Below, piece by piece: positions 28,072 through 54,329 of a stretch of DNA of 58,679 bases. The notes below the pieces were generated by a model, which was given only the letters and a program-made list of their open reading frames with translations, did no database searches and was not told the DNA's origin. The stretch is taken from NCBI GenBank assembly GCA_013816615.1, contig JACDED010000013.1, positions 1 to 58,679 of the forward strand. Reading direction: 5' to 3'. The first letter of the stretch is position 1, and each line of letters opens with the position of its first letter. A program made the position numbers and the translations under genes. The stretch comes from Bacteroidota bacterium. GTDB lineage: Bacteria; Bacteroidota; Bacteroidia; B-17B0; Aurantibacillaceae.

Positions 28072-30276
28072 GTGGATATTACTGTAAAACACATTTATTG
28101 TTTCTTATTTATCATCTTCTTTTCATTTGTAGGATTGAAAGGACAAACGCGTGTAATAGATTCCCTTCTTGCAGATATTAAAACGTTGAATGCCGAATCG
28201 TCCTCTGCCGGCCTTGATGATACTATTAGAATAAACACTCTTATTAATTTAAGTAACGAATATGTTGCGCAACGTAATTATTCAAAAGCAATCAAGTACG
28301 CTACCATCTCTAAAATAATGGCGGAAAAACTTACTGCCGCTCTTGATATTTCTATTTCTAAGGTTTGGTTAGCCAATGCTATACAAAGCATTGCTTATAC
28401 TTTAGAGAACCAGGAAAGCTATGCCAGCGCTTTAGTCCAATATAAAAAAGAGCTTTTGTTGAGAGAAGAGATTGGCAACGATCGCAAAACGGCTATCTGT
28501 TTAAATAAAATTGGAGAGATTTACAATTCTCAGGATAATCTCGATGCTTCATTAGAATATTATTATAAAGCGCTTAAGCTTACCAATGAGGTTTTTTCAA
28601 AAGAAGAGGCCTTAACTATTTACAATAATATTGGTATTGCATACGACCGGCAAACAAATTATGCCAAATCACTCGAATATTATAATAAGGTTTTAGAATT
28701 AAGCACTATTTTAAGAGATACAAACACGATGGGCATTTCTTATTCTAATATTGGTACGGTATATGCCGAACAGGGAAAGAACAAAGAAGCTTTTATTTAT
28801 TATTTTAAATTTTTAAAATTCGCGCAAATTACCGGTAACAAAAAAAATGTTGCTGTAGCTTATTTAAACATATCTAACATTTTTGATGCAGAAGAGAATT
28901 TTAAAAAATCTTTCGAAATGCAATTCAATGCCATGAAGATCTTTGAGGAGCTTGGCAACCAGGCCGAATTGGCATTAATTAAAGCAAATATTGGTTCTAC
29001 ATATATTTCTTTGGCAAAAACAACCATTAGCGCGGGCGAAAGAAACAGCAGTTTAAAAGAGGCGAAAAAATGCCTTAACGAAGCTTTGTTGCTTTATCAA
29101 AAAAGCAGGCAATTAGAAAGCATTGGCCAGGTTTACCGGCATCTTGCGGATATGGAGAAATTAAGCGGTAATTTTGAAGCCTCTTTAGAAAACTATCGCC
29201 TATACATACAATTTCGTGATAGCTTAATGAAATTGGAAGACAATGAAAAACGCATTCGCGCTGAAATGAATTATGAGTTTGATCAAAAAGAATCCATATC
29301 AAAGCTTGAACAGGAAAGGAAACAAGCCATTGTAAAAGAAGAAAGCGATAGACAAAAACAGATCAGGAATTTATTTATTGTAGCTTTTATTTTTATGGTA
29401 GCGCTTGCTGTTTTTATTTTTAGAAGCAATCGCCACAAACAAAAAGCCAACAAAATTATTTTGCAACAAAAACAAGAAGTAGAGAGACAAAAAGCTTTAG
29501 TGGAAGAAAAACAATTCCAGATTATCTCCAGCATTAATTACGCTAAAAGGATCCAGGAATCTATTTTAATTGCAGAAGATGAAATGACGGCTAATTTGCC
29601 GGATCTTTTTATCACTTATCTTCCAAAAGATATTGTGAGCGGTGATTTTTACTGGTACTCAAAACAAGGTAACGATTCCTTTATTGTTGTGGCCGATTGT
29701 ACAGGCCATGGTGTGCCCGGCGCATTCTTAAGTATGGTTGGCAGCACTTTATTAAATGAGATCATCATTCATAAAAAAATATACGATCCTGCACTGATCA
29801 TAAATGCGCTTGCAACAAGCCTTGCCACAACACTTGCCAATAAAGAAAAAGATGAGGTGAATACCGATGGCATGGATATATCTATTTGCAGAATAAATCA
29901 TAAAACAAAAAAACTTTCGTTCGTTGGTGCCAATCAATCTATTTATATTGTCGATCATAAACAGGCAATGGAGATAAAGCCCCAAATAAGTTCTATAAAT
30001 GGGATCTTTGCAGTTGATAAAACACAAAAGATCGCTGCTTTTGAATTAATACTTGAAGAAAATTTAATGATCTATTTAACTACTGATGGATATATTGACC
30101 AGATAGGCGGACAAAACAATAAGAAATTCCTGAGCTCACGTTTTGAAAAATTGCTTGCTCACATGTATTCTTTATCTGTTGAAAAACAACAGTACGTTTT
30201 AGAAGAAACTTTTGAAGACTGGAAAGGGGAATCAAAACAAATTGATGATGTTTTGGTAATTGGTTTTAAGATCTAA
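28072..30276 (+). CDS. TPR-containing membrane SpoIIE/PP2C-type serine/threonine phosphatase (SiaA-like role)
   Basis: 734 residues with a GTG start. Signal/anchor at 5-24; TPR units from about 50 to 385 (NKIGEIYNSQDNLDASLEYY and similar at 40-residue spacing), outside the cytoplasm; a membrane helix at 433-450; a coiled coil at 455-500; and a C-terminal phosphatase. Metal residues include Asp525 (SGDFYW), Asp542 (VADCTGHGVPG), Asp672 (TTDGYID) and Asp726 (IDDVLVIG). It would sense an external signal through TPRs and dephosphorylate a switch protein. The SiaC-like gene converges on it and overlaps by 11 bases, and a SiaB-like kinase follows, so a partner switch is likely. Confidence 0.87.
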   Translation: MDITVKHIYCFLFIIFFSFVGLKGQTRVIDSLLADIKTLNAESSSAGLDDTIRINTLINLSNEYVAQRNYSKAIKYATISKIMAEKLTAALDISISKVWLANAIQSIAYTLENQESYASALVQYKKELLLREEIGNDRKTAICLNKIGEIYNSQDNLDASLEYYYKALKLTNEVFSKEEALTIYNNIGIAYDRQTNYAKSLEYYNKVLELSTILRDTNTMGISYSNIGTVYAEQGKNKEAFIYYFKFLKFAQITGNKKNVAVAYLNISNIFDAEENFKKSFEMQFNAMKIFEELGNQAELALIKANIGSTYISLAKTTISAGERNSSLKEAKKCLNEALLLYQKSRQLESIGQVYRHLADMEKLSGNFEASLENYRLYIQFRDSLMKLEDNEKRIRAEMNYEFDQKESISKLEQERKQAIVKEESDRQKQIRNLFIVAFIFMVALAVFIFRSNRHKQKANKIILQQKQEVERQKALVEEKQFQIISSINYAKRIQESILIAEDEMTANLPDLFITYLPKDIVSGDFYWYSKQGNDSFIVVADCTGHGVPGAFLSMVGSTLLNEIIIHKKIYDPALIINALATSLATTLANKEKDEVNTDGMDISICRINHKTKKLSFVGANQSIYIVDHKQAMEIKPQISSINGIFAVDKTQKIAAFELILEENLMIYLTTDGYIDQIGGQNNKKFLSSRFEKLLAHMYSLSVEKQQYVLEETFEDWKGESKQIDDVLVIGFKI

Positions 30277-30643
30277 CCTCGTTAAAAAGAAATTTCATGC
30301 CGGTAAGTTTTTCCAGGCGGCTACCTGTCTGCAACATATCAGTATCTCCGATATCGTAGTTCCAATTTAAATTTACTTTTTTCGTTTTGCTTAATTCATC
30401 AAACTGCATGATCATTTTCATAACTTGTTTAGTCGATGAAGTGCTTATGTAATCAAAATGAAGTATAACATTGGTTTCTTCTTTTGGTGTTCTTAAATAT
30501 TCGGTTACATGTTCAATTAAAGGCTCATAAAAAAGAATTGCATTCTCGGGTAAAGAACGTTTTGCTATCTCAAAAACGCCCTTACTGTTATCAAACATAA
30601 CATAAGGAAGGTCTTCAGTGGCATCAAATCTTAATACATCCAT
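30266..30643 (-). CDS. SiaC-family (DUF1987) regulatory phosphoprotein
   Basis: 125 residues, the family length. Markers are the N-terminal pattern with MFDNSKGVFEIAKRSLPENA, the central HFDYISTSSTKQVMKM, and WNYDIGDTDMLQTG near the end. In Pseudomonas aeruginosa SiaC is phosphorylated by SiaB and dephosphorylated by SiaA, on Thr68 as I recall; here Thr68 lies in the Ser/Thr cluster STSST. The gene starts two bases after the kinase gene and its stop overlaps the phosphatase gene. In Pseudomonas the unphosphorylated form activates the diguanylate cyclase SiaD; no such gene is in this window, so the target is open. Confidence 0.85.
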   Translation of the reverse strand: MDVLRFDATEDLPYVMFDNSKGVFEIAKRSLPENAILFYEPLIEHVTEYLRTPKEETNVILHFDYISTSSTKQVMKMIMQFDELSKTKKVNLNWNYDIGDTDMLQTGSRLEKLTGMKFLFNEVRS

Positions 30644-30645
30644 AT

Positions 30646-31770
30646 TTAATAACTTATATTAGCTTTTATAACGATAAACGATTTATCATCCTTATAAGGT
30701 ACCAGTTCTATTTCTATTTTATTTTTACTTTTAATACGTATGTCAATAAGTCCAAGGCCTGCGCCTTTTTTCTGATCATCTTGCTCAATAACTATTGTTT
30801 CCAGGTAAAGTTTTTCTACAGCTGCGTTATCAAGTGAATTTACAAACTCAATCTTTTTAACTACCTCATCTATATTCTTATTCTCAATATAATTTCCGGT
30901 TATTAAAGAACAAACATTGTTGTTATCTGCAACCATAAATAAACCGGGGCGTTCCTCACTATTGGTTATTCCGGCAGCATGGTAGCTAATGTTTTGCAAC
31001 AATTCTATCATGATGGCAACCGATGTTTTTTTGAAGCTAAAATTTTCGGTAAGATAAATACTTCCTTCAGCCATTGATAATAAGCTGCGTACATTCTCGT
31101 GCCTGAATTGCCCTTGAAAAAAGATCTTTAAATTATTATCAATTACCGCTTCGTGTACATTTTTTACAACATCATAATTGTGTTGTTCAACTACGGTATT
31201 CTCAATACCTTGTGTGTCGGTAATTTTAGATTGAAAATAAAAGTATGAGTTCTGCTCGTCCAGTTTTTTAAAATCGTAAGAAAGCTTATTACCACTTTTT
31301 CTTACCATTTCTATTAATCCAAGGCCTGCACCACCCTTTTCAGAAAACCCGCCGGCACTTAAAACTTCTTTTTGGTAATCTTTCAACTCATCCGGATTCA
31401 TTGAATTTACCTTATCAAGTTTTTGAGATAACGAAGCGATATGACCGTTTTCTACTTCATTCCCCGAACCAATAAGATATCCGCCCAAAAATTTATGTAT
31501 AGAAAAAAAGCCGTCCATTAAACGGGTATCTTTACTGCTACCCTGGTGGCGGGTTATATTTTGAAGGGATTCAACAATAATAAAATATACCTTTTTTTTG
31601 ATCTTAAGCGATTCGCTTTCCACCTCCATATTTGTCTCTGCCAGCGCTAAAATACGTTCTGTAAGATCATTTGTAAAATCTCCGTTATACGCATAGTTTA
31701 GCTGGTAATTATTTAAAACATTAAATAATTCGGCAATCGACAAATATTTCTGGTTTTTAGACCCCTTCAT
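30646..31770 (-). CDS. Tandem two-domain SiaB-like protein kinase
   Basis: About 374 residues from the ATG at 31770; an upstream TTG adds two. Two homologous halves, about 10-185 and 205-374, each carry a GHKL-type ATP site: N-box Glu67/Asn71 (VESLQNITRH) and GAGLGL at 147-152 in the first; Glu256/Asn260 (IELLQNISYH) and GAGLGL at 336-341 in the second. Both look intact. SiaB of Pseudomonas is a single such domain, roughly half this length. The fusion may give an internal dimer or a kinase with one catalytic and one regulatory site. It is cytosolic, and lies upstream of siaC in an operon. Confidence 0.83.
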   Translation of the reverse strand: MKGSKNQKYLSIAELFNVLNNYQLNYAYNGDFTNDLTERILALAETNMEVESESLKIKKKVYFIIVESLQNITRHQGSSKDTRLMDGFFSIHKFLGGYLIGSGNEVENGHIASLSQKLDKVNSMNPDELKDYQKEVLSAGGFSEKGGAGLGLIEMVRKSGNKLSYDFKKLDEQNSYFYFQSKITDTQGIENTVVEQHNYDVVKNVHEAVIDNNLKIFFQGQFRHENVRSLLSMAEGSIYLTENFSFKKTSVAIMIELLQNISYHAAGITNSEERPGLFMVADNNNVCSLITGNYIENKNIDEVVKKIEFVNSLDNAAVEKLYLETIVIEQDDQKKGAGLGLIDIRIKSKNKIEIELVPYKDDKSFIVIKANISY

Positions 31771-31777
31771 AATCAAT

Positions 31778-31808: not shown

Positions 31809-31944
31809 ATTAAATTGTAACATATCTTTGTTTATAGTTTTAAGCCCTCCTTAATTAGTAGCTAAAAAGGTATATGTCTAAAAAAACTAAAATTATTATT
31901 ATTTACCTGATTGATTAATTATATTTGGTTAAATAATTTTACGT

Positions 31945-34900
31945 ATGCTTTGTAAGTTCAATAAACACATCCTGGCCCTGGCACTTCTGCTTTTTTCTTT
32001 TTTTGGCTACTCACAAAAAGGAAATCAATTATCAAACGATACCGTAAAATTCATTAACGATCTAAATAATTATTTTATTGAAAACACATCCAACCGCTTG
32101 GAAGCAGAAACATACATGCGCACATTTACGCGTTATTGGGAAGAAAATTATATTACCGGTTATTATAAAGAGGTTACTATAAAAGCTTGTAATGCCATGG
32201 CAGTTAAGCGTCTTAAACCAGTACCCTATATTACCGGTTATTTTACTGCGCTTTATACCGCTCTCGAAAAAAAAATACCACACGAAACGTTTGACAACTG
32301 GCATACTTGCTTAATGAAAATTTTAAGTAAAAAAGGTATTGGTGGCGCGCAAGAACTTATTTCGCTTGGCGAAAACATGTTTCGCTTTAATGCGTTTTAC
32401 AAAACGCCATCGTATGTGTATTATGCTTTAGAACCAAGTTATAAATTTGATTATGATACCATTCCAAAAATTACCTTTAAAGATATTACCCTTATTGGTG
32501 TTAACCCACGGGGTGATAGTATTGCTATTGAAAACACCAACGGCGTATTTTACCCACAAACTGGAAATTTTGTAGGAAAGAATGGCAAAATAAGCTGGGA
32601 GCGTTCAGGCTTGGATAAAGAAGTGTACGCCACCATTAAGCGTTATACCATTGATTGTAAAACCGGAAATTACAGTAGCGATACAGCAACCTTTGTTGGT
32701 AAACAGTTTTTTGATAAGCCACAAATTGGTCGTTTCTCAGATCGTATCATTACTGAGAACGGTGAGTTAACTTACCCCCGTTTCGATTCGTACAGCAAGC
32801 GTTTAGTTGTAAAAAACATTTACCCGGATGTAGATTATGACGGTGGTTTTGGTATGCGTGGGCCAAAGTTTGTAGGCTCAGGTACAAATGCTAACCCTGC
32901 AAGAATAATTTTTAAACGTAATGGTATAAAGTTTTTAGAGATCGCTGCCCGCTCATTTGGTATGAGCAAAGATAGAATAGTTGCCAACCCCGGTATCGTA
33001 AAGTTCTTTTTAAATAAAGATACTATCTATCATCCGGGTTTAAGTTTTACTTACCAGGTAGAAAAACGTTTGGTAACCATTTTAAGGGGCGATGATGGTT
33101 TGCAAAAAACACCATTCTCAAATTCATTTCATAAATACGATATGTATTTTGAACAGATACTTTGGCAGTTGGATGAGCCAACAATTGCATTTAATTTTTT
33201 ACCAAATAATTTTCAAGGTGAAGCATATTTTGAATCGACCGATTTTTATACCCGCGAAAAATCGGAAAACATAAAAGGTAAAGAAACCGTAAGCCCTATC
33301 TCTAAAATGATAGAATATTATAATGCAAATGATAAACCCGCACAGTTTACAACAGTTGATTTTGCAAAATATATCAAATTTTTAGCGATCGATCTTCGCC
33401 CTATCATTTTTAAAATGGCTATTGCCGGTTTGATCTATTATGATCCGGAAACTGATATGATCAAAGTAAGACAACGTTTGTTTGATTTTGCAGATAATCT
33501 AAAGCACAAACATGATTATGATGTTATTACATTGCACTCCGTTATACAGGGTAAAGATAATGCCAATTTAAATCTATTGAATTACGATCTAACCGTTCAT
33601 GGTGTGAAGCAGGTGCTGTTAAGTGATACACAAAAAGTATTTATGTTTCCTAAAAATGGTGAGTTGGTTCTAAAAAAGAACCGCGAGATCCTTTTTAACG
33701 GTACGCTCTCATCCGGTAAGTTCGAGTTTATTGGTAAGGATTTTATTTTTGATTACGAAGAGTTTAAAGTAAAAATGAAAACCATTGATTCGATCAAGAT
33801 CTTTGTAGAAGCTTTTGAACCGGACATTAATGGTAATATTCCGTTTAAAAAAGTACAAACCCTTATTGAGAATGTAAATGGTGAATTGCGGATAGATGCG
33901 CCCAGGAATAAGAGCGGATGGGGCCGCGCACCAACCTTTCCGTCCTTCCAAAGCTTTAAAGAAAGTTATGCCTTTTACGATAAGCGTACGATCTTTAAAG
34001 GTGTGTATAACAAAGATAAATTCTATTTTAAGTTAGATCCTTTTGCAATTGATAGTTTGGATAACTTTAGAAATGAGGGATTGCGTTTTGATGGCACATT
34101 TTCATCTGCGGGTATTTTTCCTGACTTTAGAGAAGTACTTACATTACAAAAAGATTATTCTCTTGGCTTTATCAGGCAAACCCCGGCCGGTGGTTATCCG
34201 CTTTATGGGGGTAAAGCTAACTTCGACCAGGAAATTCGTTTAAGTAACAAAGGTTTACGTGGTGGTGGTGATCTTAATTTTAGTGCCAGTCATTCAAAAG
34301 TGCCCGATCTAATTTTCTTTCCGGATAGTGCCAATGGTAACGCCAGCACCTTTGATGTAAAAGAAGGAGATAATCCCGAATTCCCAACTGCACATGGGGA
34401 TACGGTGCGCCTGCATTTTATGCCATACAAAGATCTTTTGCAGGCCTTTGATATTAAAAAACCATTCAGGGCGTATAAAGAAAATATAACTTTTAAAGGC
34501 CGTTTTGATCTCAGTTATAAAGAACTTACCGGAAATGGAAAAGCAGAATTTGAAAAAGCAGATCTTTCTTCGGGAAAAATACTTTTTGTAAAGCGGCGTA
34601 TATTTAGCGATACGGCTAATTTTCACTTAAAGGCATTTGAGGAAGATGGTTTTACATTTAGTACTGTAAACGTAAATGCAAAAATAGATTTTGATGCCCG
34701 TATGGGTGATTTTATTACAAACGGAGAGGGCTCATATGTAAAGTTTGATAAGAACAAATACATTGCCTTTATGGATCGCTTTAAATGGTACATGGATTCG
34801 GAAGAGATGGAGCTTGGTGATACTCAGAAAAAAATTGATACAGAAGCCGCCGAAAAAGGTTTGGATCTCGAAGGACCAGAATTTATCAGTATACATCCCA

Positions 34901-36441
34901 ACCAGGATTCTTTGCGCTTTTTTGCTCCCGGGGCTAAATATAATTTAAAAAAATACATTATCAAATGTAAGAATGTACCTTTTATAAATGTAGCCGATGC
35001 CAGAATTTTCCCTAGCAATGGTGATGTTACCATTTTTAAAAACGCTGTAATGGATACTTTAAGAAACTCTTCTATTCTTGCTAATACGGTAACAAAATTC
35101 CATACCATTCGTAATACAACAGCAAATATTTTTAGTAGAAGAAGCTATTTAGCATCCGGCGAATATCAATATTTGGATGAGAACGAGAAACCTTATTTAA
35201 TTAAATTTAATACGATACGCCCCGACACAACCGGTCAAACCATTTCAGAAGGTTTAATTGATGATAAAGAAAAATTCCAGTTTAATGATCATTTTAGCTT
35301 TGCAGGTAAAGTATATTTATTTGCAACCAACGAATTTTTATTTTACGAAGGCGGAACCAAGATCGTAAACAATTGTAATAAGATCGGTAAAGCCTACTTA
35401 CAATTTACCGGTGAGATCAATCCAAAAGATATACAAATACCAATTCCCAAAAAAGCTTTGGATGTTAAAGGCGCACCAATTGGAACGGGTTTGTTTTATA
35501 ACTCCGATACAAATATGGTTTATGCCTCTTTCTTATCCTTACAAGGTACAAGGGGCTCTAAAGATGTTATTGAAGGTGATGGTGTTTTAACTTATGATAA
35601 AGAAAATGATATGTACGAGATATCTAATAAAGAAAAATTATTAGAAATGAGCTTACCGGGTAACTATGTTAGCTTAAGTAGTGCTAATTGTGAAATCTAT
35701 ACTGAAGGAAGATATAATTTAAGTACCGATCTTGGCCAGGTAAAATTAACCAATGTTGGTAATGCCACTTACAAAACAGTTAAAGACAGTATTAACTTTA
35801 ACTTAATGATGGCTATCGATTTCTTCTTCGAAGGAAGTGCTATTCGTAAAATGGCAAAAGATTTTGAGCTTTACCTCGGAAGCCTCAATCCAACGCCCTT
35901 TGAAGGAGATCTTTTTAACCATGGTTTAATTGAAATCTTAGGAAAAGATAAAGGTGACAGGGCCCTTTCTGAATTAAATTTATATGGCAATTACAAAAGA
36001 TTTCCTGATGAACTGGAAAAAAACCTGGTGCTTAACGATGTAAAAATGATCTATAATACAAAATTAAACTCCTATATATCTGAAGGTATGATAGGGGTTG
36101 GAAATATTTTAAAGACAGAGATCTTCCGTTATATGAAAGGCCATGTACAGATCACGAAAAAACGAGGTTTAAATAAAGATATCATGGAAATTTACCTTGA
36201 GGCGGATCCTAACACCTGGTATTATTTTAATTATACTAATGGTAAAATGTTAGCTGTAAGCAGTAATGATCAGTTTAATAAGGATATTAAGGAAATGAAG
36301 AGCAAAAATAAAAAGATGGATGTGGAGAAAGGGCCTTCTTATAGCTTTGATGCAACCAATCCAAAGAAAAAAGATGACTTCCTTAGAAAAATGAAACAAT
36401 ACGGCGCGGCCGAAGAAGAAGAGGAGAAAAAAGAAGATTAA
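31945..36441 (+). CDS. Giant exported beta-rich protein of unknown function (1498 residues)
   Basis: Signal peptide 1-24 (LLLFSFFGYSQ). Residues about 30-160 look alpha-helical; from 180 to 1450 the sequence alternates short polar beta strands and Gly/Asp turns, with many Asp, Lys, Phe and Tyr and terms such as FKGVYNKDKFYF. The tail is highly charged (EEEEEKKED) and is not a T9SS sorting domain. I recognise no family; the strand-turn pattern recalls long periplasmic beta proteins. It leads an operon with an ABC transporter (69 bases on), a small exported protein and a lipoprotein. A TATATTTG box is at 31920-31927 and a TAATTTTA box at 31934-31941, just before the ATG. Confidence 0.8.
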   Translation: MLCKFNKHILALALLLFSFFGYSQKGNQLSNDTVKFINDLNNYFIENTSNRLEAETYMRTFTRYWEENYITGYYKEVTIKACNAMAVKRLKPVPYITGYFTALYTALEKKIPHETFDNWHTCLMKILSKKGIGGAQELISLGENMFRFNAFYKTPSYVYYALEPSYKFDYDTIPKITFKDITLIGVNPRGDSIAIENTNGVFYPQTGNFVGKNGKISWERSGLDKEVYATIKRYTIDCKTGNYSSDTATFVGKQFFDKPQIGRFSDRIITENGELTYPRFDSYSKRLVVKNIYPDVDYDGGFGMRGPKFVGSGTNANPARIIFKRNGIKFLEIAARSFGMSKDRIVANPGIVKFFLNKDTIYHPGLSFTYQVEKRLVTILRGDDGLQKTPFSNSFHKYDMYFEQILWQLDEPTIAFNFLPNNFQGEAYFESTDFYTREKSENIKGKETVSPISKMIEYYNANDKPAQFTTVDFAKYIKFLAIDLRPIIFKMAIAGLIYYDPETDMIKVRQRLFDFADNLKHKHDYDVITLHSVIQGKDNANLNLLNYDLTVHGVKQVLLSDTQKVFMFPKNGELVLKKNREILFNGTLSSGKFEFIGKDFIFDYEEFKVKMKTIDSIKIFVEAFEPDINGNIPFKKVQTLIENVNGELRIDAPRNKSGWGRAPTFPSFQSFKESYAFYDKRTIFKGVYNKDKFYFKLDPFAIDSLDNFRNEGLRFDGTFSSAGIFPDFREVLTLQKDYSLGFIRQTPAGGYPLYGGKANFDQEIRLSNKGLRGGGDLNFSASHSKVPDLIFFPDSANGNASTFDVKEGDNPEFPTAHGDTVRLHFMPYKDLLQAFDIKKPFRAYKENITFKGRFDLSYKELTGNGKAEFEKADLSSGKILFVKRRIFSDTANFHLKAFEEDGFTFSTVNVNAKIDFDARMGDFITNGEGSYVKFDKNKYIAFMDRFKWYMDSEEMELGDTQKKIDTEAAEKGLDLEGPEFISIHPNQDSLRFFAPGAKYNLKKYIIKCKNVPFINVADARIFPSNGDVTIFKNAVMDTLRNSSILANTVTKFHTIRNTTANIFSRRSYLASGEYQYLDENEKPYLIKFNTIRPDTTGQTISEGLIDDKEKFQFNDHFSFAGKVYLFATNEFLFYEGGTKIVNNCNKIGKAYLQFTGEINPKDIQIPIPKKALDVKGAPIGTGLFYNSDTNMVYASFLSLQGTRGSKDVIEGDGVLTYDKENDMYEISNKEKLLEMSLPGNYVSLSSANCEIYTEGRYNLSTDLGQVKLTNVGNATYKTVKDSINFNLMMAIDFFFEGSAIRKMAKDFELYLGSLNPTPFEGDLFNHGLIEILGKDKGDRALSELNLYGNYKRFPDELEKNLVLNDVKMIYNTKLNSYISEGMIGVGNILKTEIFRYMKGHVQITKKRGLNKDIMEIYLEADPNTWYYFNYTNGKMLAVSSNDQFNKDIKEMKSKNKKMDVEKGPSYSFDATNPKKKDDFLRKMKQYGAAEEEEEKKED

Positions 36442-36510
36442 TTATCTAATTTTTAGCTAGAAACCAGATAAAACTAAAATAATGCTTAATTTAATGTCCT
36501 CTTTTAACTT

Positions 36511-39500
36511 ATGAGTGAGGAAATACTTAGGGCATTAATGCAATTATTTGCCATTATTGCAAAACAGGATGATGGCAGCGGTGATTCGGAGCGTAATTTT
36601 GTACGTTCCTTCCTTTCATTTCAGTTAAACAAAACCAAATCAGAAGAGTATCTTGCTCTTTATGATAATTATCTAACCGAAGATAAAGTTGTAAAAGGTA
36701 TTGAAGGTGATGATGAGGTACCAACTACAAAAAAGCGCAAGCGTACTTCTGTTTCCGATTCTGTACGCACACTTACCATTTGCATCAAGATAAATAAAAC
36801 ACTTGCACAAAAACAAAAAGTAATTGTGTTGGTACGTTTGTATGAATTATTAAAAGCAAATAATTCTTTTACAGAATCACGCATTGATATTATCAATACT
36901 GCCGCCGAAGGCTTTAATATTTCTGAAGAAGAAAAACGTGTGGCAGAAGTTTTTTTTACACAGGTAGCTATTCCCGATGATATTGCACAACACTTTGTAG
37001 TAATAAATGATTTTGCCGGGCAAGCATCAAAAGCCAATCACATTCGCTCTGAAGGTTTGGATGGAGAGATCGTTACCATTCGTTTTCCAAGCGTAAATTT
37101 ATTATTCACCAATTATACCGGCATTAACGAATTACAAATTAATGGCATACCGGTTGACAGGAAAATTGTTTACCTGTTAGCTCCCGGCAGTACAATAAGG
37201 GTACCACGCGGTACCATTTATTACTCTGATATTGTTGAGCAGTTCTTAAGTACCAACGAGCATAATAAAATAAGTTTTGTTGTAGAAAATTTACAGTACA
37301 AATTTCCGGGTGGTAAAATTGGCTTGCGCGATATTAATTTTTCAGAATCACATAGTGCATTGGTTGGCATTATGGGTGCCAGTGGCGCCGGTAAAACAAC
37401 TTTGCTAAACGTGCTTTCAGGAATTGAAAAACCGAGCGGTGGCAACATTCGCATTAACGGACAGGATGTAACGTACGACAAATCACAAATAAAAGGATTG
37501 ATCGGTTACATTTCGCAGGACGATCTTTTAATTGAAGAGTTAACTGTGTATCAAAATCTTTACATTAATGCTCAGTTATGCTTTAAAGATAAATCGCCTG
37601 AAGAATTAAAAACAGTTGTATTAAAAACATTAGAAGACCTTGGCCTTCTTGAAACAAAAGATATTATTGTTGGTAACGCGCTTAATAAAAAAATAAGCGG
37701 TGGCCAGCGTAAACGTTTAAACATTGCGCTTGACCTTATTCGTGAGCCCGCTATTTTATTTGTAGATGAACCAACTTCAGGTTTATCATCCCGCGATTCG
37801 GAAAACGTAATGGATCTTTTAAAAGAACTTTCATTAAAAGGTAATTTAATTTTTGTTGTAATTCATCAGCCTTCATCTGACATTTTTAAAATGTTCGATA
37901 AAATCTGCGTGCTTGATGTTGGCGGTTATAATATTTATTATGGCAACCCGGTTGAAGCAGTAATGTATTTTAAAAAAGCCGCAAATCATGTTAATTGCGA
38001 TATTGGCGAGTGCGAGCTTTGCGGAAACGTTAATCCTGAATTGATCTTTAATATTTTAGAAAGCCAGGAGGTAGATGAATACGGTAACTATACCGGTAAT
38101 AGGAAAGTACAACCCGAAGAATGGCATAGTGCTTTTAAAGCAAACATTAAGCTTCCTGATTTTAAAGAGGTAAAAGAAAAAATAGTTAATTCTTTTAAAA
38201 TTCCAGGTGTTATAAAACAATTATTTGTTTTTATAAAACGTGATATACTTTCAAAGATCGGCAACAAACAATATTTACTTATTAATTTAATAGAAGCTCC
38301 CGCCCTGGCAATGTTATTATCCTTTGTGATCCGCTATACATCAAGGGTTAAAGGTGCTGAATATGTTTTCAGAGATAACGATAATATTCCGGCTTACATT
38401 TTTATGTGCGTAATTGTTATGCTTTTTATTGGCTTAACAGTAAGTGCCGAAGAAATTTATAAAGACCGTAAGATCTTAAAACGTGAGCGCTTTTTAAATC
38501 TTAGTCCGTTTGCCTATTACCTTTCAAAGGTTAAGATCTTATTTGTGATCACTGCAATACAAAGTTTATTATTTGTGCTTATTGGTAATTATATTATTGA
38601 ATTAAAAGGTATGACCATGCAGTGTTGGTTTATGTTATTTACAGTAGGTTGTTGCGCAAATGTTATTGGCTTAAATATTTCGAGTGCGTTTAATTCGGCG
38701 GTAACTATTTACATTTTAATTCCGTTATTAATTATTCCGCAATTAATTTTAGGCGGTGCCATGTTTACGTTTGATAAGTTAAATGCCAGCATTGGTGGAG
38801 GATCGGGTGTACCGGCTATTGCAAGTACAATGCCTTCGCGCTGGGCTTATGAAGGTTTAATGGTGCAACAATTCAGGTATAATAACTACGAAGAGCCCTT
38901 CTTTGAGTTTGATAAAAGTATTAGCCAGGTAAATAATAAAATGACTTATTATATTCCCGAGCTTGTTCAGATAGCAACAGATGCTTTGCGTTTATCAAAA
39001 GAAAAAGATGCTAAATCGCAGGAAGAGTTCAAAGAGAAAATAACCATTATTAAAAACGAATTAACCCGCGAAGCACGAACAAATAAGGAAGTGGTATTTA
39101 ATGATATGGCTTTTTTAACGCCGAAAAAATTTACCAATATCACTTTCGAAAATCTGAATAATCATTTTGTAAGATTAAACCGTTATTACAATTTTCAGTT
39201 TATTCGTTATGATATAAAACGAAACCTAAAACTATCAGGCTTTGTTGATAGCAAAGAGGGACAGGAGCGTTTCCAGAGGGTAAAAAACAAGTATTCTAAC
39301 GAGTATTTAGAAGATGTGGTTAGAAAAGAGTATGTAAAGAATAAATATATCATCGAAAACGGGTGCTTAAACCAGCAATTAGATCCTATTTATATTAACC
39401 CGCCAAAACAGTACATTTCTTACAATATCCACTTCTTTTCACCTTATAAATACCTTTTAGGTAAAGAAATAAGCACTTTTTGGTTCAATACGGTGGTTAT

Positions 39501-39582
39501 ATGGTTCATCTCCCTCATCCTGTTTATTCTTTTATATTTTGAAGTTCTTAAAAAAACATTAAATTTGTTTAACAAACACTAG
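36511..39582 (+). CDS. ABCG-like ABC transporter (ATPase and permease in one chain) with TerB-like N-terminal extension
   Basis: 1023 residues. Residues 1-165 resemble a helical TerB-like domain (LRALMQLFAIIAKQD). Residues 183-250 form a beta domain, FHA-like at best. The ATPase follows: Walker A 289-296 (GASGAGKT), signature ISGGQ 395-399, Walker B 416-420 (LFVDE), His452. A Cys group, C496-x4-C501-x2-C504, follows. Membrane helices lie near 587-607, 629-645, 672-695, 703-727, 731-752 and about 990-1012, with a 240-residue domain before the last helix. The domain order is that of ABCG half-transporters. Its substrate is unknown. Operon position suggests it exports or energises something for the giant protein upstream. 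Confidence 0.85.
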   Translation: MSEEILRALMQLFAIIAKQDDGSGDSERNFVRSFLSFQLNKTKSEEYLALYDNYLTEDKVVKGIEGDDEVPTTKKRKRTSVSDSVRTLTICIKINKTLAQKQKVIVLVRLYELLKANNSFTESRIDIINTAAEGFNISEEEKRVAEVFFTQVAIPDDIAQHFVVINDFAGQASKANHIRSEGLDGEIVTIRFPSVNLLFTNYTGINELQINGIPVDRKIVYLLAPGSTIRVPRGTIYYSDIVEQFLSTNEHNKISFVVENLQYKFPGGKIGLRDINFSESHSALVGIMGASGAGKTTLLNVLSGIEKPSGGNIRINGQDVTYDKSQIKGLIGYISQDDLLIEELTVYQNLYINAQLCFKDKSPEELKTVVLKTLEDLGLLETKDIIVGNALNKKISGGQRKRLNIALDLIREPAILFVDEPTSGLSSRDSENVMDLLKELSLKGNLIFVVIHQPSSDIFKMFDKICVLDVGGYNIYYGNPVEAVMYFKKAANHVNCDIGECELCGNVNPELIFNILESQEVDEYGNYTGNRKVQPEEWHSAFKANIKLPDFKEVKEKIVNSFKIPGVIKQLFVFIKRDILSKIGNKQYLLINLIEAPALAMLLSFVIRYTSRVKGAEYVFRDNDNIPAYIFMCVIVMLFIGLTVSAEEIYKDRKILKRERFLNLSPFAYYLSKVKILFVITAIQSLLFVLIGNYIIELKGMTMQCWFMLFTVGCCANVIGLNISSAFNSAVTIYILIPLLIIPQLILGGAMFTFDKLNASIGGGSGVPAIASTMPSRWAYEGLMVQQFRYNNYEEPFFEFDKSISQVNNKMTYYIPELVQIATDALRLSKEKDAKSQEEFKEKITIIKNELTREARTNKEVVFNDMAFLTPKKFTNITFENLNNHFVRLNRYYNFQFIRYDIKRNLKLSGFVDSKEGQERFQRVKNKYSNEYLEDVVRKEYVKNKYIIENGCLNQQLDPIYINPPKQYISYNIHFFSPYKYLLGKEISTFWFNTVVIWFISLILFILLYFEVLKKTLNLFNKH

Positions 39583-39615
39583 TTTCTGGGTATAAACTTT
39601 AATTACAATCTTTAA

Positions 39616-40026
39616 ATGAAAACAAAATTTATTCTTGGCTTTAGCTTAATTATTTTGAGCTGTTTCTTAAAAGCGCAATGCGTTTCTGATAACTGCAACT
39701 CTAAACTGGGAACTTTTACATACTTAAAAACCATTTATATTGATAATACCAAACTGGTAAATAAACCAAACATGGTAACTTATTTATTCAGTAAAGGTTC
39801 AACGTATATGGTTTTATGCTGCGACCAGGCAATAAAAGGAAGCCGTTTAATTGTGAACGTTTACGATAAAGACAAAAATTTAATTGCTACTAATAAGCAA
39901 AAAAAGAAAGTTTATCCTTCTATTCAATACCCATGCAGCGCAACCGGTATTTATTATATCGAATCGTTTTATGAGGACTCTAAAGACCCATGTGGCGTAA
40001 ACATTTTAGGCTTCACAAAATCTTAA
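39616..40026 (+). CDS. Small exported Cys-containing protein, unknown
   Basis: 136 residues. Signal peptide 1-20 (ILSCFLKAQ). The mature part has seven Cys (in CVSDNC, LCCD, YPCSA and DPCGV), suggesting disulfides in the periplasm, with beta strands and YIESFYED near the end. No family recognised. It lies 33 bases after the ABC transporter gene and 24 before the lipoprotein, within one transcript. Confidence 0.65.
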   Translation: MKTKFILGFSLIILSCFLKAQCVSDNCNSKLGTFTYLKTIYIDNTKLVNKPNMVTYLFSKGSTYMVLCCDQAIKGSRLIVNVYDKDKNLIATNKQKKKVYPSIQYPCSATGIYYIESFYEDSKDPCGVNILGFTKS

Positions 40027-40050
40027 TTTTATTATTACAAAAAAACTATT

Positions 40051-40962
40051 ATGAAAAATTTTACCCGTTTTGGTATTTATTTACTTATGCCTCTTTTTGT
40101 TGTTTTTATTGCCTGTAGTGGCGATGAAGAAAAGTTTGTTGAGAAAAAAGAATCCGTTGATACTTTACCCGCTAAAGTAAAGCCGGATATTTCTGCTGAG
40201 GTGATCAATAATATTATCATGTCCATCCCTTCGCCGTTAGAAATGGCAACCATGTTAAAAGATAACGGCCAGGGATATGACGCCAACTTATTAAACCCAT
40301 CAACCAATCTTATTAAATATAATACCAATTATAAAATAGCGTTTAACATTGGTGTTTATAGTGCAGACCTTGGTTACATTAATATTTACGAGAAAACATT
40401 CTCGGCTATGAGTTATTTGCAAAACATTAAACAACTGGGCGATGATATACATATTGGCCAGTTCTTTGATTTTGAAACATTAAAACGTTTGGCAACCAAC
40501 ACTAAAAATTACGATTCGTTGATCTTTATCAGCACCGATAACTTTAATAAAATGGATGCACATTTAAGAACACAAAACCGTAATGAGCTAAGTGTATTAA
40601 TGATCAGCGGCGCATGGCTGGAAGGCGTTAACATTGCCTGCCAGGTAGCAAAATTAAAACCTAATAAAGAATTAACTGAGCGCTTAGGTTTTGAAAAAAT
40701 TAACCTCGATAATATTTTGGTTATTTTAAATGCTTACAAGAACGATAAATATTTTGCACAAATAGTAACTGAGTTTGAAAAATTAAAACAGATCTACAGC
40801 AAGATCGAGATCAGCTATCAATATGTTGAGCCTGAAACCAAAGAAGTAAATGGCCAGTTAGTGATCGTTAATAAAAGCAAGAGTACTGTAAACATTACTG
40901 AAGCCCAATTAAAAGAGATCATTGAAGAGATTGCACGCGTAAGAAATGTTATGATAAATTAA
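40051..40962 (+). CDS. Lipoprotein of unknown function, possibly surface exposed
   Basis: 303 residues. Lipobox FIAC gives lipidated Cys22, followed by SGDEE; acidic residues just after the lipidated Cys are a Bacteroidota signal for export to the outside of the outer membrane. The mature part is alpha-helical (for example SYLQNIKQLGDDIHIGQFFD and ELKEIIEEIARVRNVM). No family recognised. It is last in the four-gene operon and is followed after 18 bases by a strong terminator. Confidence 0.75.
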   Translation: MKNFTRFGIYLLMPLFVVFIACSGDEEKFVEKKESVDTLPAKVKPDISAEVINNIIMSIPSPLEMATMLKDNGQGYDANLLNPSTNLIKYNTNYKIAFNIGVYSADLGYINIYEKTFSAMSYLQNIKQLGDDIHIGQFFDFETLKRLATNTKNYDSLIFISTDNFNKMDAHLRTQNRNELSVLMISGAWLEGVNIACQVAKLKPNKELTERLGFEKINLDNILVILNAYKNDKYFAQIVTEFEKLKQIYSKIEISYQYVEPETKEVNGQLVIVNKSKSTVNITEAQLKEIIEEIARVRNVMIN

Positions 40963-40980
40963 TTGAAAAAAAACAAACAA

Positions 40981-41016
40981 AAACCCCGTTGGCAAACACC
41001 AACGGGGTTTTTTGTT
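40981..41016 (+). terminator. Strong terminator of the four-gene operon
   Basis: AAACCCCGTTGG (40981-40992) pairs perfectly with CCAACGGGGTTT (40999-41010) across six bases, then TTTTGTTT. A's upstream allow it to work also for the convergent gene at 41027. Confidence 0.9.
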
Positions 41017-51377: not shown

Positions 51378-54329
51378 CTAAATTCTTAGTTTAAGTTTAA
51401 CAATAGTGCCGGTTGATTGTTCAAGGTCGAATTTATCTTCAATATCTATTTGAATATCTAAATTCAATTGTATATTAAGATGCTCTATTCGTTGTTTGGT
51501 AACCGACATGCCCATTGAATGATGATGAAGATTCTTTTTTTGTTTAATTTTCATAGCGTTGGCTCGGCCAATACCATTATCGTTTACAGTACAAACCAAG
51601 TAATCGTTTTCTTCTTCAAAAGAAACGATAACGCTGCCGCGCAAATTTTTTAATGGTAAAATACCATGCAAAATAGCATTTTCAACATAGGGTTGTATTA
51701 GCATGTTTGGAATATAAATGGTTTTGGACTGCAATTTCTCATCGATATCAATTCTGAAATCAAAACTAAAAGAAGCTCTTAATGCTTCGAGCTCAAGATA
51801 AAGCTTTAATGTTTTTATTTCTATTGATAATAAGATCACTTCTTGTTTTGAGTTTTCTAAAACTGACCTGATCAACCTTGAAAATTTGGTCAGGTACTTT
51901 TGGGCTATTACCGACTCGTTTTTGATAATGAAATTTTGAATGGAATTCATTGCGTTAAAAATAAAGTGGGGATTCATTTGAGCACGCAAGCCTTTTAATT
52001 CAGATTCTACAAGCAGTTTATTAAACGCTGCTTTTTCTTTTTCTTGTCGTTTAATACCATTAATATGTATCTTATAAATAATATAAAGTACCATGCAAAC
52101 GGTTATAAAAATTAATGTTATAAACCAAACCGTTTTCCAAAAAGGTTGCTTTATACTAAAACTTATAACTGCCGGTTTCAGGCTTAAAAATGCGTTGTCG
52201 TCAATGGCATAAACAACAAATTTATAATTGCCGGCGGGCAATGTTGTAAATTGCACAAAGGTGTTTTTAGTGTGGGTCCAATTGGTATCAAGTCCTTCTA
52301 ACCGGTATTTATAATTTATATTTCCTTCATTCTTTAAATAAATTCCTTTATAATTTATTTTAATAAAATTTTCGTCATAATTTAAAACATGTTTAGCAGT
52401 AACAGGTGTTTTTATATTTTTTACAAAAAAATATTCAATATACACCGGTATTGATTTTTGTTTATCAAAGGCATCAGAAATATCAAATGTGCCAAGGCCA
52501 CTGTTAGTTGCAAAATATAATTGTTTGTTATAAGCAATTATCTGGTTTATTTCGTTTGATATTAAACCATTAAACAGGTTTAAAGAGGTGCATTTATATT
52601 GCCCCCTAATATCTTTTTTTAATCTCGATATACCACGGTTTGTTCCTATCCAAATATTTCCATATGTATCTTTGGCAATACATTTACAAACATCGCTGGC
52701 AAGCCCGTTTGCTTCATTATATATAGCTATAATTTTATTGTTTTTAAAGCACAGAACGCCAAATCCTTTTGTAGCGATAAAAAGCGTTTTATCCTGTTCG
52801 ATCATTTCTACAACCCTGTTATTTAAAAGTGGGATGCTGTCACCAAAGAACGTCAATTTGCTTTTTTCAAATTTATACAAACCTTTTTTAGTTCCAATAT
52901 ATAAACTGCCATTAAAATAATACATACTAAATATGCGGGCAGGTACAAGTGTAAGAAAGACAGATGTGCCAGTTTTTTTATTGGTTATCCATATTTTAGA
53001 ATATTGGTCGCAAACAATAATATTCTCCTTATCAAAGTCTGCCGGCTTCCGTATAAGAATTTTTTGCCCCGCACTGTCTTTTATCGTATTTAAATCCTCG
53101 GTAATGGTATTATATATATAGGATCCATTATGGCTAACAATTACAAGCGATTTATCGTAACTATAAAGATTGGTAGTTTGGAATTTTATTGTGCCTGTAA
53201 TTTTTTGAGTATTTAAATTTAAAATATTAGGCTTGTACCTATTTACGGCACAGTACATATTGCTATCCACAACAGCAATGGCGTATACTTTATCAGCATT
53301 TAAGCCACAACTGCTATTAAAATAACTATATTTTAGGGATGGTATATAATTAATCCCGTTATTAGTAGTGGTAAACCAAAACCCATTATCTGAATCTTCA
53401 AAAACGCAGGATACGGAATTGCCATCCATAAATTTTTTTGGTTGTTTGTCAAACTTACAACCATCAAACTTTAAAGCCCCCTGTTTTGTAGTTCCAAACC
53501 ACATATTGTTTTTTGAATCTTTAAAAACGGTTATAAAATAGCCGTTATCCATTTTGTGATAATCCATCAATTTATTAATTCGTTTATTTAAAACACCATA
53601 TAACGAAATGCCGTTTCCGAAAAAATAATTACTGTCTCCAAGTTTTAACGCAGTTAAAAAGTTAACACCAGTCTTTATATTTTTGAAGGGTGGGATTTGT
53701 TTTGAGTTTTTATACCCTATAAACGAAAGGTCAAAAACATGATATGAAGTATAGTCTAATTTATCGCAGCCATAAATAAAATTATTCTTATTTATTTCTT
53801 TTATATACAAACCGTCCTTAGTAAGTCGAATGTGCGTAACGTTTTTATATAATGGTGGATCAACCTTAAGATAACCATTGAGTTGAATGGAAATCCATAA
53901 TGTATCCATATCACCAAAACAAAAATCAATTGGCAGCATTTTGGTAATTTCGCTTAGTTGTTTATTGGCGGGTATCGTGTAAACAGAATCAGTTTCATGT
54001 AAATAATAAGCAAACATTCCTGAATAGGTAGAAAACCAAATGCGGTGATGGGTATCTTCATGAATTTTAAAAACGGTATTATCGGGTAGACCTTTAGTGC
54101 TGTTATATGTTATAAATTTATAACCATCATATTTTACAACACCGGCATCGGTAGCAACCCATAAAAAACCTTTGCTATCCTGGGTTACCCAATAACATTC
54201 GGAGCTTGGTAAGCCCTGGTTAACACTATAATTTTTAATAACACTGTTTTGCGCAATAACATCACTCCATTTATTTAAAAATAAACCTATAATTAATGTT
54301 AACCAAAAGTTGTATGTTTTTATTTGCAC
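51378..54329 (-). CDS. Sensor protein: beta-propeller, Y_Y_Y domain and LytS-type histidine kinase
   Basis: 983 residues with a GTG start. Signal peptide 1-26; two seven-bladed propeller sets of reg_prop type (WVTQDSKGFLWVATDAGVVK, GTTKQGALKFDG, NIWIGTNRGISRLK); a Y_Y_Y domain near 630-720 (YKYRLEGLDTNWTH); a membrane helix about 732-755; then the His_kinase domain with His788 (NPHFIFNAMNSI) and an ATP-binding domain with NDNGIGRANA. The layout suggests periplasmic sensing of a large ligand. It pairs with the LytTR regulator downstream. A TATCATTG box lies just before the GTG. Confidence 0.9.
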   Translation of the reverse strand: MQIKTYNFWLTLIIGLFLNKWSDVIAQNSVIKNYSVNQGLPSSECYWVTQDSKGFLWVATDAGVVKYDGYKFITYNSTKGLPDNTVFKIHEDTHHRIWFSTYSGMFAYYLHETDSVYTIPANKQLSEITKMLPIDFCFGDMDTLWISIQLNGYLKVDPPLYKNVTHIRLTKDGLYIKEINKNNFIYGCDKLDYTSYHVFDLSFIGYKNSKQIPPFKNIKTGVNFLTALKLGDSNYFFGNGISLYGVLNKRINKLMDYHKMDNGYFITVFKDSKNNMWFGTTKQGALKFDGCKFDKQPKKFMDGNSVSCVFEDSDNGFWFTTTNNGINYIPSLKYSYFNSSCGLNADKVYAIAVVDSNMYCAVNRYKPNILNLNTQKITGTIKFQTTNLYSYDKSLVIVSHNGSYIYNTITEDLNTIKDSAGQKILIRKPADFDKENIIVCDQYSKIWITNKKTGTSVFLTLVPARIFSMYYFNGSLYIGTKKGLYKFEKSKLTFFGDSIPLLNNRVVEMIEQDKTLFIATKGFGVLCFKNNKIIAIYNEANGLASDVCKCIAKDTYGNIWIGTNRGISRLKKDIRGQYKCTSLNLFNGLISNEINQIIAYNKQLYFATNSGLGTFDISDAFDKQKSIPVYIEYFFVKNIKTPVTAKHVLNYDENFIKINYKGIYLKNEGNINYKYRLEGLDTNWTHTKNTFVQFTTLPAGNYKFVVYAIDDNAFLSLKPAVISFSIKQPFWKTVWFITLIFITVCMVLYIIYKIHINGIKRQEKEKAAFNKLLVESELKGLRAQMNPHFIFNAMNSIQNFIIKNESVIAQKYLTKFSRLIRSVLENSKQEVILLSIEIKTLKLYLELEALRASFSFDFRIDIDEKLQSKTIYIPNMLIQPYVENAILHGILPLKNLRGSVIVSFEEENDYLVCTVNDNGIGRANAMKIKQKKNLHHHSMGMSVTKQRIEHLNIQLNLDIQIDIEDKFDLEQSTGTIVKLKLRI

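Follow-up and report, generated by a model that had tools for sequence, protein, structure and literature searches.

The closest described relative of the regulatory genes treated here is the Sia system of Pseudomonas aeruginosa, in which SiaB adds a phosphate to Thr68 of SiaC and SiaA removes it (PMC7647112). In the work on the SiaC-SiaD structure it was proposed that members of the DUF1987 (SiaC) family generally modulate adjacent proteins (PMC8457831). Phosphorylation-linked control of an ABC exporter has a precedent in Rv1747 of Mycobacterium tuberculosis (PMC5549992), and signals for the export of lipoproteins, such as SDDDD, have been published (PMC5080379). We analysed a stretch of 58,679 nucleotides (hereafter the window), which forms one contig (C236) of the 246 in a 4.68 Mb assembly and whose closest named relatives are uncultured Bacteroidota. 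The SiaC sialidase of Capnocytophaga shares the name of the regulator discussed below and is an unrelated protein. At a probability of roughly 0.55, we read the locus as two units, namely a Sia-switched ABCG-type exporter cassette and an older giant gene whose product has an Lpt-like predicted fold.

Organization of the locus

The first-pass annotation described four genes on one strand, separated by gaps of 69, 33 and 24 bp and closed by a strong terminator near position 40981, and re-derivation of the coordinates returned all of these. The stem of the terminator has 15 pairs and is read both ways. The regulatory half of the cassette, which lies directly upstream (28072-31776) and encodes a SpoIIE-type phosphatase, SiaC and a SiaB-family kinase side by side as in SiaABC, was absent from that annotation. 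The features are as follows.

28072..30276, plus strand: TPR and SpoIIE (PP2C-type) phosphatase (Pfam TPR and SpoIIE; partial match to the NCBIfam SiaA model)
30266..30643, minus strand: SiaC-family regulatory phosphoprotein with Thr68 in YISTSS (Pfam SiaC, 5e-27)
30646..31776, minus strand: tandem SiaB-family kinase with two SiaB-like halves (NCBIfam SiaB_fam_kinase; Pfam DUF6272)
31915..31930 (approximate), plus strand: predicted -7 promoter box TATATTTG of gene A (conservation of upstream regions)
31945..36441, plus strand: giant protein A, 1498 aa, with signal peptide, predicted Lpt-type beta-jellyroll modules and a winged-helix insertion (AlphaFold2 and fold comparison)
36511..39582, plus strand: transporter B, 1023 aa, with TerB-like domain, unassigned beta domain, ABCG-type ATPase and permease (profile searches)
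39616..40026, plus strand: small secreted Cys protein C, 136 aa (18-member alignment)
40051..40962, plus strand: lipoprotein D, 303 aa, with lipobox Cys22 (homologue alignment)
40979..41012, both directions: intrinsic terminator facing convergent genes

Three of the four products had been noted as belonging to no recognised family, and indeed the giant, the Cys protein and the lipoprotein have no Pfam or NCBIfam match in the window. Such families were also not found consistently among 20 homologues of A or 33 homologues of D, and comparison of the A and D profiles with the sequences of solved structures gave nothing convincing for either. Further along the window (51378-54329, minus strand) lies a histidine kinase gene with a two-component-regulator propeller (Reg_prop, Y_Y_Y).

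Gene order and the promoter of A

We compared gene order in 60 relatives and in 247 genomes sampled evenly across the phylum. Gene A is present in 58 of the 60 relatives, nearly always as a single copy, and in 10 of the 247 genomes; a genome scan with a narrow alignment of A gave 80 loci, nearly all from uncultured Bacteroidota. It occurs in most sampled families around the window genus, often beside plsY. Among the 57 named A loci with enough downstream sequence, B follows within 1.5 kb in five, all from one close clade, and it is in this clade only that A is co-directional and stable with B-C-D, the giant being 85-94% identical there. In distant families A lies between prmA and plsY: PrmA or TpiA precedes it and PlsY follows it at 19 of 64 scorable loci, and one of these two flanks is present at ten others. 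Elsewhere in the genus purL often lies immediately next to A and points away from it, while in the window clade SpoIIE-SiaC-SiaB stands between purL and A, and B-C-D follows A.

The first-pass annotation had proposed that the four genes form one dedicated export or envelope assembly system with conserved synteny. A conserved four-gene operon is ruled out by these positions of A beside prmA and plsY or beside purL, as B comes directly after A in a single clade; the first-pass annotation had itself named an unconserved gene order as grounds for refutation. What survives of that proposal is its envelope and export theme, since B, D and usually C do recur together and the giant has a predicted Lpt-type fold; the single four-gene unit does not. 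As judged from gene order, the four genes are two units lying together in a small group of uncultured Bacteroidota.

The box TATATTTG lies some 18-22 nt ahead of the A start codon, is invariant in all 15 upstream regions of the genus and is kept with or without Sia genes upstream of A. It fits the Bacteroidota -7 element, TAnnTTTG. On this conservation, A is predicted to have its own promoter with a conserved -7 box, and the most economical account is that A became bracketed by the cassette while keeping this promoter. As A is bracketed in the window clade, B-C-D may be transcribed there by read-through from the promoter of A.

The recurrent cassette of B, D and C

Within 3 kb of B and on the same strand, D is found at 31 of 36 B loci and C at 25, with both present at 24. 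All 49 relatives that have B also have D, which is absent from 8 of the 11 relatives lacking B (p 6e-8, a value that ignores the kinship of the genomes). The genome of the window itself carries a second copy of B with D and C (contig C30), and the 6 kb that could be inspected there hold no Sia genes. This copy and eight other B copies of the genus that are not Sia-linked have an extra secreted protein of about 160-180 aa encoded directly before B. These gene orders point to a movable, recurrent cassette of B, D and usually C, often accompanied by SiaB, SiaC and the SpoIIE phosphatase.

Transporter B places its ATPase before an ABC-2 permease in one chain, as ABCG-type proteins do; both parts are clear by profile, the ATPase motifs are intact, and the closest solved structures by profile are CDR1, ABCG1 and ABCG2. 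B had been annotated as a fusion of TerB-like domain, beta domain, ATPase, C-x4-C-x2-C group and permease. The ATPase and permease were recovered, as was TerB at the level of the family: 28 of 36 homologues match its profile, with E down to 5e-9, whereas the window protein itself stays below the cut-off at E 0.01. Of the cysteine group just the last CxxC is conserved, with C501 and C504 kept in 35 of 36 homologues but C496 not. The collection of papers searched contained none on TerB-ABC proteins in Bacteroidota. B also has a loop of about 230 residues that precedes the last membrane segment and could contact C and D on the outer side of the inner membrane.

C has three conserved Cys columns, C22, C27 and C126, in the 18-member alignment. 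The lipobox Cys22 of D is invariant in 33 homologues, and the predicted mature start, C-S-G-D-E-E, is like the published export signals without being equal to them and varies among homologues. The D family is multi-copy, with up to eight members per genome among the 60 relatives, and is also found away from B. We infer a location of D at the periplasmic or surface side, where both D and C would act.

Linkage of the Sia switch to B

The phosphatase of the window matches the NCBIfam SiaA model over its phosphatase part only, with 172 bits against a cut-off of 700. Its SiaB matches SiaB_fam_kinase above the cut-off (216 bits) in two stretches, as it does Pfam DUF6272. The threonine of SiaC is at residue 68, and the motif is kept in the short SiaC proteins of the cassettes. 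SiaC lies within 9 kb at 18 of 31 B loci, as against an expectation of 0.57 given how many SiaC genes the genomes have and how large they are, the counts being inflated by shared descent, and 15 of 16 genomes carry one or more Sia-linked copies of B. In the tree of B the window protein falls into a group of seven with 100/98 support, all Sia-linked, and Sia linkage requires seven changes over the tree. As the exporter cassette stands repeatedly beside a phosphorylation switch, a switch that controls the pump is suggested.

The best-surviving alternative, which we nevertheless consider unlikely, is that the Sia genes beside B act elsewhere, for example on a diguanylate cyclase as in P. aeruginosa, and that B-C-D is either unregulated or regulated at transcription. 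Such a role would agree with the 13 of 31 B loci that have no SiaC nearby and with the up to nine SiaC clusters per genome, most of which are not beside B. It fits poorly with the excess of linked loci over expectation and with the many loci at which SiaC directly adjoins B, and four loci carry directly beside B a gene for a protein of 356-377 aa whose C-terminal part is a SiaC domain and whose N-terminus is unassigned, possibly an adaptor between switch and exporter. No diguanylate cyclase SiaD was found among the scanned ORFs around the window cassette. At four loci CheR-like, CheB-like and GAF genes, named by eye and not by profile, precede a sensor SpoIIE phosphatase, which suggests chemosensory-type parts in the same cassette.

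For the Sia-switched exporter we propose that SiaB would phosphorylate SiaC on Thr68 and that the SpoIIE phosphatase would remove the phosphate in response to a signal at its sensor part. SiaC in one of its two forms, the unphosphorylated one by analogy with SiaD, would bind the cytoplasmic N-terminus of B with its TerB and beta domains, and this binding would turn export on or off, the putative substrate being hydrophobic or linked to a lipid.

Fold and role of the giant protein A

As envisaged in the first-pass annotation, the structure of the giant was predicted, and the result is a putative chain of beta-jellyrolls of the LptA/LptC type. AlphaFold2 models were made of residues 152-1345 (mean pLDDT 86.5) and 700-1498 (87.3) and are almost all beta. 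In these models the N-terminal half matches LptC with Z 10.6 and LptA/LptH with Z 10.0, and the C-terminal half matches LptC with Z 10.3-11.8 and LptA with Z 10.8-11.3. The predicted modules that match LptC and LptA (Z 10-11.8) lie at about residues 157-284, 293-433 and 845-1010, and Z scores of 10-12 are to be read as a shared fold and not as a shared function. The lipid binder ApoB100 is a weak fold match. A profile comparison of A with LptA and LptD came out below 1%, by a method whose control is itself weak, the OstA-LptD pair reaching just 16%. An insertion at about residues 437-523 is predicted to be a winged helix like that of MarR (Z 7.9, a common fold), in a beta protein that is itself predicted to be exported.

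The genome encodes LptD_2, OstA_2 and TamB elsewhere. A role of A as the LptD or LptA replacement of this genome was rejected, as both are present elsewhere and also in genomes without A. A is likewise not TamB, as the TamB Pfam domain had no match in 20 A homologues and a separate TamB gene lies on contig C232.

From the predicted fold and the plsY context, A is probably a lipid-handling envelope protein; we read its gene as older than, and independent of, the cassette. Its chain of jellyrolls would hold or carry envelope lipids alongside the standard Lpt and Tam systems. If so, A would add another path for envelope lipids to those of LptA, LptD and TamB, in a phylum about whose lipid traffic little is known.

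Relation between A and the cassette

Among the 60 relatives no genome has B without A (p 0.03, confounded by lineage), and all five B genomes in the draw of 247 have A as well. As B is found only in genomes with A, some dependence is hinted at. Slightly less plausible than a Sia switch acting elsewhere, and improbable in our judgement, is a joint role of A and B-C-D in one trans-envelope lipid export line, with B extracting the lipid from the inner membrane, A forming the slide that takes it through the periplasm, D helping at the outer membrane and Sia setting the flow. This co-occurrence would follow from a joint line, as would the stable co-directional arrangement in the window clade, and an exporter with a jellyroll bridge mirrors the Lpt layout. 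In a second, distant family A likewise has B, SiaC, SiaB and D as neighbours, but this case alone is expected by chance at about 30%. Against a joint line, 52 of the 57 named A loci have no B directly downstream, B is absent altogether from 9 of the 58 genomes with A, and A keeps its own promoter. We are more doubtful still of the fuller version, a dedicated lipid export line separate from LPS transport in which a SiaC-gated ABCG-type exporter feeds A as a single-chain Lpt-like slide.

It is just as doubtful that A is an outer-membrane LptD-like translocon of jellyroll and barrel instead of a soluble slide. In favour of a translocon, Foldseek ranks LptD first over the whole chain of both models (E 1.4e-5 and 4.7e-6), and the C-terminal part has weak porin and BamA matches (Z 4-4.6). 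Against it, whole-chain superposition on LptD is poor (rmsd about 27-40 A) and the good matches are confined to individual jellyroll modules, so that only these modules are safe; charged residues are frequent in the strands, and the chain ends in a helix and an acidic tail.

Comparison with known systems

Giant A has beta-jellyroll modules in common with LptA, LptC and LptD by predicted fold. It differs from them in being one chain of about 1500 residues with a winged-helix insertion and no sequence-profile match, and it occurs besides the LptD and LptA of its own genome. With TamB and AsmA-like lipid-transfer proteins it shares the character of a giant beta-rich envelope protein, but A homologues give no TamB profile match and the TamB gene is separate.

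B resembles the eukaryotic ABCG proteins CDR1, ABCG1 and ABCG2 in having the ATPase before the permease and a large outer loop that precedes the final membrane segment; it differs in its TerB/beta N-terminus, its conserved CxxC and its much longer loop. Like the Rv1747-type exporter (PMC5549992), B is an ABC exporter with extra N-terminal domains and a link to threonine phosphorylation. The domains in B are TerB and beta, however, the FHA profile matching neither the B homologues nor anything at the window locus, and the kinase is of SiaB type and not of Hanks type.

With SiaABCD of P. aeruginosa the cassette shares the SpoIIE-type phosphatase, the SiaB kinase and Thr68 of SiaC (PMC7647112, PMC8457831). 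The recurrent neighbour here is an ABCG-type exporter with a lipoprotein and not SiaD, SiaB is a tandem fusion, and the sensor parts differ from those of SiaABCD, being TPR, or PAS/GAF with CheR/CheB nearby. The cassette offers a concrete and recurrent candidate target other than a cyclase, namely an exporter, for the proposal on the neighbours of DUF1987 proteins, and makes that proposal testable.
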